Positions 11,526 to 13,645 of a DNA stretch of 43,805 bases are shown here, in pieces. A model generated the notes under the pieces. The model saw only the letters and a list, made by a program, of their open reading frames with translations, did not search any database and was not told where the DNA came from. Made by a program: the position numbers and the translations under genes. Within the stretch, counting starts at the first letter, position 1. Every line of letters starts with the position of its first letter. Source of the DNA: Asaia bogorensis (GTDB taxonomy: Bacteria; Pseudomonadota; Alphaproteobacteria; Acetobacterales; Acetobacteraceae); assembly GCA_945888575.1 (NCBI GenBank), contig CAMDAM010000003.1, positions 1 to 43,805 on the forward strand, given 5' to 3'.

Positions 11526-13223
11526 ATGAACGACATCCTCCATGTTTCGGTCCCGGAGTGCGCTGTCGCGGCGGCACCGTCCCGCGACCCGGTCGTTGCC
11601 GCCATGACCGCCGCCGTGGCGGAACCCTTCCTCATTCTCGATCGGCGCCGCCGGGTGCGCGGCTGGAACCCGGCCGCAACGGGCCTGCTGGGGTTGGAGG
11701 CGACGCAGCCGGACACGGGCTTGGCGCGGTTGCTGGCCGGCGCCACGCGGATGGATGCCGCCACGCGTGAGGCGGTTGCGGCGACCGCCAGCGCGGCGAT
11801 CGAGGGTGGGGCGCTATCGCCGTCCCGCCCCTTGGGGTTGCGGGTGCACCAGATCGGTCCGCATCGCTGGATGCTGGTGTTCCCTGCTGAGCAGGACGCG
11901 AAGATGGCGGACCTCGTGCTGACCGATCCGCTGACCGGCCTGGCCAACCGGCGCGCCTTCCAGCAGGCTTTGGCCGGCCTGATGCCTGCCACGGCCACGC
12001 GCCCAGGCGGGCCTTCGGTTCTGCTGATCGACCTCGACCAGTTCAAGCAGGTCAACGACCGGCTGGGCCATCCCATTGGCGACGCGCTGCTGATGGCCGT
12101 GGGGCGACGGCTGCGCTCGGCGCTGCGCGACACGGACCGGGTGTTCCGGCTGGGCGGCGATGAGTTCGCGGTGATCGTCGACACGCCTGACCGGGCCGAG
12201 GCGGTGGCCACGCGGCTGGTGGATCTGCTGAGCCGGACCTACCTGGTGCAGGGGCATGTGTGCACCATCGGCGCCAGCATCGGCATCGCCACCGCGCCCG
12301 GCGACGGCGACACCGGGGACGAGCTGGTGCGTTGCGCCGACCTCGCGCTGTACCAGGCCAAGGCCGAGGGGCGGCAATGCGTGCGCCGGTTCCATCCCGA
12401 ACTGGACGCCAAGGCGCGCACGCGGCACGCGATCGAGGCGGATCTTCGCCTGGCGCTGGTGCGCGACCAGCTGGAGCTGCACTACCAGGCGCAGATCGAT
12501 CTCGCCGGCGGGCACCTGGCCGGATTTGAGGCGCTGTTGCGCTGGCGCCACCCCGAGCGTGGGCTGGTGCCGCCCGATTCCTTCATCCGCATCGCCGAGG
12601 AGATCGGCCTGATCGTGCCGTTCGGGGAATGGGTGATCCGCACCGCGTGCCGCGTTTGTGCGAGCTGGCCGGCGCCGCTGGTGGTCGCGGTGAATGTCTC
12701 CGTGCTGCAGCTGACCGCGGCGGCTAACCTGGTGGAGACGGTGAAATCCGCCCTGGCAGCCTCCGGCCTGCCGGCGGCCCGGCTGGAGATCGAGATCACC
12801 GAGTCTGCCCTGCTGGGCGATCAGGCGACGCCGCGGGCCATCCTGCTGGCCCTGCGCGACATGGGCGTGCGCATCTCCATGGACGATTTCGGCACTGGCT
12901 ATTCCTCGCTGAGCCAGCTGCGGTCCTTCCCGTTCGACAAGATCAAGATCGACCGATCGTTCATCGGCGACATGGCCAGCAGCAGCGAGGCGACCGCCAT
13001 GGTGCGGGCGGTGACGACACTGGGCGCCTCCCTGGGCATGACGACGACGGCCGAAGGCGTGGAAACGGCGGAGCAGGCGCGCCAGCTGGGCATCGAGGGC
13101 TGCACCTACATGCAGGGATACCTGATCAGTCGGCCGCTGCCGCAGGACCAGATCCAGGCGCTGATCGCGCGCCACGCCACCCACGAACCCTTGCCCCCCT
13201 TTCGTGCAGAGAGCGAAACATGA
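11526..13223 (+). CDS. PAS-like GGDEF-EAL bifunctional c-di-GMP diguanylate cyclase/phosphodiesterase
   Basis: 'RDTDRVFRLGGDEFAVIVD' (RxxD I-site five residues before GGDEF), 'FEALLRWRHPERGLVPPDSFI', 'ITES', 'MDDFGTGYSSLSQL', 'KIDRSFI', 'AEGVET', 'MQGYLISRPLP'; PAS-like 'EPFLILDRRRRVRGWNPAATGLLG'. Confidence 0.95.
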   Translation: MNDILHVSVPECAVAAAPSRDPVVAAMTAAVAEPFLILDRRRRVRGWNPAATGLLGLEATQPDTGLARLLAGATRMDAATREAVAATASAAIEGGALSPSRPLGLRVHQIGPHRWMLVFPAEQDAKMADLVLTDPLTGLANRRAFQQALAGLMPATATRPGGPSVLLIDLDQFKQVNDRLGHPIGDALLMAVGRRLRSALRDTDRVFRLGGDEFAVIVDTPDRAEAVATRLVDLLSRTYLVQGHVCTIGASIGIATAPGDGDTGDELVRCADLALYQAKAEGRQCVRRFHPELDAKARTRHAIEADLRLALVRDQLELHYQAQIDLAGGHLAGFEALLRWRHPERGLVPPDSFIRIAEEIGLIVPFGEWVIRTACRVCASWPAPLVVAVNVSVLQLTAAANLVETVKSALAASGLPAARLEIEITESALLGDQATPRAILLALRDMGVRISMDDFGTGYSSLSQLRSFPFDKIKIDRSFIGDMASSSEATAMVRAVTTLGASLGMTTTAEGVETAEQARQLGIEGCTYMQGYLISRPLPQDQIQALIARHATHEPLPPFRAESET

Positions 13224-13645
13224 GCGAGCCCCTGTTTCGCCTTCTCTATTGCAGCCGGTCACTGCTGGACCCTGCGAGCGCCGAGGCGGACATCCGCAAC
13301 ATCCTGGAAGTGGCCCGCCGCAACAACCGGGCAGCCGGGCTGAGCGGGGCGCTGCTTTTCACCACCCACGCCTTTGCCCAGGTGCTGGAAGGACCGCAGC
13401 ATGCTGTGGAGGCAACGTTCGAGCGCATCCAGTGCGACCCGCGCCATCGCGACTCGCAAGTCATCGAAGTTGGCCCGATCGAGGCACGGGAATTCGGTGC
13501 CTGGAGCATGGCCTATAGCGGCATGGGCGACGCGCTGGCGGGCCTGGCGTTGGACAAGGCCTTCGCACTCCCTCCAGCGGAAGCTGGCACCCGGGTGCTG
13601 GGGATATTGCGCGACGTGATGGCACGCGAAGGCGAATGGGCCTGA
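13220..13645 (+). CDS. Short BLUF-domain blue-light photoreceptor
   Basis: 'FRLLYCSR', 'RRNNRAAGLSGALLF', 'FAQVLEGPQHAVEATFERIQCDPRHRD', 'WSMAY'; ATGA overlap with upstream GGDEF-EAL. Confidence 0.93.
   Translation: MSEPLFRLLYCSRSLLDPASAEADIRNILEVARRNNRAAGLSGALLFTTHAFAQVLEGPQHAVEATFERIQCDPRHRDSQVIEVGPIEAREFGAWSMAYSGMGDALAGLALDKAFALPPAEAGTRVLGILRDVMAREGEWA

Follow-up and report, generated by a model that had tools for sequence, protein, structure and literature searches.

A short BLUF photoreceptor gene overlapping a GGDEF-EAL gene: a conserved candidate cassette for blue-light control of c-di-GMP in trans

The window analysed here, a stretch of 43,805 nucleotides from Asaia bogorensis, contains two forward-strand genes: a PAS-GGDEF-EAL gene (11,526–13,223; 565 aa), followed by a short gene for a BLUF photoreceptor (13,220–13,645; 141 aa). 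The TGA that closes the first reading frame occupies positions 13,221–13,223 and the ATG of the second begins at 13,220, producing an ATGA stop/start overlap (13,220–13,223) that would couple the two genes and that recurs as a −4 overlap in many relatives. A stop codon and a change of reading frame lie between the BLUF and EAL domains, which are therefore carried on separate polypeptides; the locus has the PapB/PapA-type arrangement of a short, lone-domain BLUF gene beside an EAL-domain gene. The upstream gene was delineated by its open reading frame and Pfam matches, and its product was modelled by AlphaFold2 with a mean pLDDT of 90.4. Its start codon is uncertain, as the frame stays open upstream of 11,526. 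A promoter scan returned no sigma-70-like site.

Pfam scores for the BLUF, GGDEF and EAL domains are all well above cut-off. The BLUF protein matches PF04940 over residues 5–98 with 98.7 bits (cut-off 25) and possesses the full set of photocycle residues, Tyr10, Asn36, Gln54, Trp95 and Met97, at the spacings (Asn–Gln 18, Gln–Trp 41, Gln–Met 43) claimed in an earlier note on this DNA. The overlap, the coordinates and the residues listed for both proteins likewise proved to be as that note gave them. Residue conservation was counted over 108 paired BLUF proteins and 100 partner proteins, and the five BLUF residues are complete in 105 of the former. The BLUF partners of two Methylobacterium loci (L169:4001-4945 and L158:4001-5134) carry a C-terminal extension of ~200–280 residues after the BLUF domain, for which no Pfam match was found. 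The Asaia genome also encodes five further BLUF proteins (loci L039, L040, L041 and L042), none of whose genes adjoins a GGDEF-EAL gene; two of the five lie in tandem on one contig (C113).

In the partner enzyme, the GGDEF domain (residues 132–284; 11,919–12,377; PF00990, 144.6 bits) precedes an EAL phosphodiesterase domain (residues 305–537; 12,438–13,136; PF00563, 236.8 bits), both encoded on the forward strand. The GGDEF motif itself (residues 210–214; 12,153–12,167) and the metal-binding aspartate of the domain are canonical, and an RxxD I-site (R201–D204; 12,126–12,137) is positioned five residues upstream of the motif. The EAL catalytic residues are intact, comprising Glu335, Asn390, Glu426, Asp453/Asp454, Lys474, Glu510 and Gln530, such that the GGDEF, I-site and EAL signatures were all found where they had been reported. 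The proposal of a PAS-like N-terminus (residues 22–118; 11,589–11,879, forward strand) fared less evenly. It is upheld by PAS_4, PAS_7 and PAS_8 matches in relatives (PAS_7 at E=2e-10 in the best of these) and by the predicted structure of the window protein, in which this region is mostly confident and PAS-like in secondary structure, whereas the window protein's own match, to PAS_8, is weak (E=0.005) and falls below cut-off. A search of the PDB with the PAS-like region alone as query gave nothing significant. In both sequence and fold, the partner is best matched by RmcA (PA0575), MorA and PA0861 (RbdA); the model of the window protein aligns with the PAS-GGDEF-EAL structure of PA0861 over ~560 columns, with poor overall superposition.

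To gauge how widely the arrangement is shared, we scanned named genomes with a BLUF-only query built from an alignment of eight sequences. In 77 of the 79 loci recovered (the exceptions being L164 and L215), the BLUF gene directly follows a GGDEF-EAL gene of the same strand, a proportion that describes the paired subfamily, since the scan patterns were derived from paired BLUF members; six of the 77 upstream genes are interrupted or cut by a contig end. These loci span Alpha-, Beta- and Gammaproteobacteria and Acidobacteriota, with hosts that include Roseomonas, Belnapia, Methylobacterium, Beijerinckia, Sphingomonas and Novosphingobium, and further Halomonas, Salinisphaera, Granulosicoccus, Methylomonas and Nitrosomonas. 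When a broader profile was used to search the whole class, the majority of BLUF proteins were unpaired. The earlier note had proposed a neighbourhood survey in Acetobacteraceae, the family of the window, from which we gathered 52 loci that have an upstream partner (e.g. from Tanticharoenia and Roseomonas); in nearly all of them the partner gene sits right next to the BLUF gene and on its strand, and two have wider gaps of 587 and 285 nt. All three plasmid matches carry the pair. On plasmid pSM-1 of Skermanella mucosa (L340) it adjoins bchE and bchJ, two bacteriochlorophyll genes, which hints at a connection with phototrophy in that organism, and on plasmid p2 of Sinorhizobium sp. B11 (L339) it adjoins the repABC replication genes. 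Variations on the theme were also observed (L155 and L207): Sphingomonas glacialis has a GGDEF-EAL gene followed by three BLUF genes in a row, and a Caulobacterales metagenome-assembled genome has BLUF genes flanking a GGDEF-EAL gene on both sides. Three Salinisphaera loci (L159, L160 and L202) have an extra GGDEF gene directly upstream of the pair.

The genes surrounding the pair are far less constant. Flanking genes are common to 31 of 122 locus pairs from the same genus, and to 30 of 2,023 (1.5%) from different or unknown genera. Seven flank genes in the window have no close homologue beside any other pair, with few matches, at 29–37% identity. Recurrence of the pair across phyla amid scrambled flanks indicates that the arrangement exceeds chance. 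Within Asaia, the segment 11,406–13,772 is missing from the eight congeners searched, in which the DMT transporter gene adjoins rplQ; none of these eight genomes yielded a close BLUF-GGDEF-EAL pair. The DMT–rplQ site is empty in seven of them and holds a ParD/ParE-like pair in the eighth. The cassette is thus gained or lost as a two-gene unit at this site, for which gain in the lineage of the window is the simplest reading, repeated loss being possible too. The DMT–rplQ junction itself seems to be an insertion site, in view of the ParD/ParE-like toxin-antitoxin genes in genome G002 (L294, 1982-2670). Composition was considered as a sign of recent foreign DNA and rejected, because the GC content of the cassette is like that of its flanks and gives no indication of import. 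Four congeners (L266-L269) encode a GGDEF-EAL protein near the paired lineage and have no adjacent BLUF gene; in L266, this protein has an extended N-terminal region, and its GGDEF motif is degenerate (GADSF).

The distance matrices of BLUF and partner proteins correlate with r=0.62 (shuffle maximum 0.22), and within the family of the window with 0.49 (0.23 when shuffled), both values being calculated without regard to species history. Mapping the paired label requires 9 changes on the BLUF tree compared to 57 when shuffled, and 4 compared to 25 on the partner tree, the paired partners forming nearly a single lineage. In addition, the second copy in an uncultured Rhodopila (L183) appears to encode a single GGDEF-EAL-BLUF chain, although it comes from one metagenome assembly in which an indel is possible; a structure model of this fusion reached a moderate pTM of 0.69, and we draw no interface from it. 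Together, the 77/79 adjacency, the matrix correlation, the retention of the BLUF residues, the fusion and the joint gain or loss bear out the central proposal of the earlier note, that a lone BLUF protein and a GGDEF-EAL protein constitute a conserved in-trans unit, and action of the BLUF protein in trans on its partner is well supported by inference from these sequence comparisons. Conversely, the operon could merely be common while the BLUF protein targets something else, in the manner of BlsA or PixD, with co-transcription entailing no contact. Short BLUF proteins can indeed act on unrelated partners (PMC8508746), and the five other BLUF genes of the same genome stand apart from any GGDEF-EAL gene. 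However, the association with a single GGDEF-EAL lineage in different phyla despite scrambled flanks, the joint gain or loss of both genes and the apparent fusion make such an absence of contact distinctly unlikely.

Given an in-trans unit, the output of the partner becomes the principal question. The eight EAL catalytic residues are complete in 98 of the 100 partners, whereas the GG[DE]EF motif is canonical in 69 and degenerate in 31, with losses scattered across the partner tree (a Nitrosomonas pair, L209, is one example); RxxD is retained in 88. A near-invariant EAL domain beside a repeatedly lost GGDEF motif implies that the shared output is most likely c-di-GMP hydrolysis. This pattern runs counter to the suggestion of the earlier note that light might reverse the net direction of activity, in which the dark and lit states of the BLUF protein would shift the partner between net synthesis and net hydrolysis of c-di-GMP. 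The intact GGDEF, I-site and EAL sequences of the window protein, including the canonical metal-binding aspartate, mean that cyclase activity and a sign switch are possible there; the majority of partners likewise keep the motif and the I-site, and a review lists SesC, a cyanobacteriochrome, as a DGC/PDE that depends on light and has opposite effects (PMC8846402). Nevertheless, the nearest solved homologues, RmcA and MorA, are reported to be GTP-controlled phosphodiesterases, for which a canonical GGDEF motif is no proof of a cyclase (PMC7825114), and the best NCBIfam matches of the partner, all below cut-off, are mostly phosphodiesterases. Taken with the degenerate motifs, these considerations leave the sign switch an unlikely account. 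The best reading of the family, from sequence conservation, is a light-gated phosphodiesterase in which the GGDEF domain may serve a regulatory or docking role; a precedent exists in PdeB, where the GGDEF domain is a protein-docking on-switch for the EAL domain (PMC9061725).

A comparison of 100 paired with 43 unpaired GGDEF-EAL proteins drew attention to a β-hairpin of the GGDEF domain (residues 237–247; 12,234–12,266, forward strand) as a candidate docking surface. Arg237 occurs in 96/100 paired versus 3/43 unpaired proteins, and position 240 is hydrophobic (alanine counted) in 99/100 versus 10/43, being often acidic in the unpaired set. Both positions fall within the hairpin in the predicted structure of the window protein, and Arg237 is retained by nearly all partners that lack the cyclase motif. 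Insofar as the Arg237/Leu240 signature tracks essentially one lineage, with only four label changes on the tree, it suggests a docking site and does not prove one. Gly243 was dropped as a BLUF-linked signature, as it also occurs in close unpaired relatives. The location of the signature in the GGDEF rather than the EAL domain could also be taken to mean that the BLUF protein chiefly controls the cyclase, with the EAL domain trimming its product, but members with degenerate motifs (DDGIF, EGDKF and DGDKF) retain the BLUF partner, the EAL domain and Arg237, which renders such a division of labour highly improbable. A composite proposal, of a widespread, mobile and so far undescribed two-gene family in which a dedicated PAS-GGDEF-EAL lineage offers its GGDEF domain as the docking site for the short BLUF protein and light sets the direction of turnover where both sites are intact, would unite the hairpin with the sign switch, and we regard it as rather doubtful. 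The N-terminus offers a further clue. Among close relatives from the same family, the 14 BLUF-linked proteins are mostly short before the GGDEF domain and the 16 without BLUF mostly have 350–500 residues there, these lengths being stop-to-stop upper bounds, and some paired partners have no space for a PAS domain. The shorter N-termini would fit replacement of a cis-acting sensor by the BLUF protein, with sensing in trans.

We therefore return to the light-gated phosphodiesterase, for which the following mechanism can be envisaged. The two genes would form a co-translated blue-light module, whose short BLUF protein presumably binds FAD and, once lit, may alter the activity of the PAS-GGDEF-EAL protein by direct contact, possibly at the GGDEF hairpin. 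Light would activate rather than inhibit the partner, and the EAL domain would supply the conserved output, c-di-GMP hydrolysis; the role of the GGDEF domain would most likely be docking or regulation (GTP sensing), with or without residual cyclase activity. That a co-translated BLUF module exerts contact-driven light control over a c-di-GMP-hydrolysing GGDEF-EAL partner appears likely from the comparative evidence, and the conserved cassette is probably a light switch for bacterial lifestyle, for which it is a candidate. If so, blue-light control of c-di-GMP in trans would be a common, portable cassette extending beyond Rhodopseudomonas palustris, common to Acetobacteraceae, Methylobacterium, Halomonas, Nitrosomonas and Acidobacteriota. 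It would also be a source of natural two-protein optogenetic tools for c-di-GMP, and would offer a testable case, with natural members that lack the cyclase half, for how regulators choose one half of a hybrid GGDEF-EAL protein over the other.

Fusions of BLUF to EAL, and one of BLUF to GGDEF/EAL, are already known (PMC4844311), and our search of the open-access literature, with subscription papers mostly outside its reach, found no description of BLUF/GGDEF-EAL gene pairs. In BlrP1 and YcgF/BluF, as here, BLUF is coupled to EAL, and the phosphodiesterase activity of BlrP1 is raised by light (PMC8846402). These proteins, however, are single chains with BLUF first and without GGDEF, whereas the cassette comprises two chains, and the sole fusion found here has BLUF last. 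RmcA, MorA and PA0861 share the domain order of the partner but are governed by N-terminal sensor regions of their own, and no separate short photoreceptor was found described for them. PdeB-HubP of Shewanella putrefaciens parallels the proposed role of the GGDEF domain as a docking on-switch of an EAL phosphodiesterase (PMC9061725), although its docking partner HubP is a polar landmark protein rather than a photoreceptor. The closest parallel is PapB/PapA of Rhodopseudomonas palustris, in which a short, single-domain BLUF protein regulates a separate EAL phosphodiesterase in trans; a review presents it as the example of such control by a short photoreceptor (PMC8846402). PapA is a solo EAL protein (PMC8846402), a description that sets it apart from the GGDEF-EAL partner here, which usually has a PAS-like N-terminus and belongs to a lineage that nearly always has a BLUF neighbour. 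Overall, the cassette resembles PapB/PapA in its presumed manner of working but is a different system.
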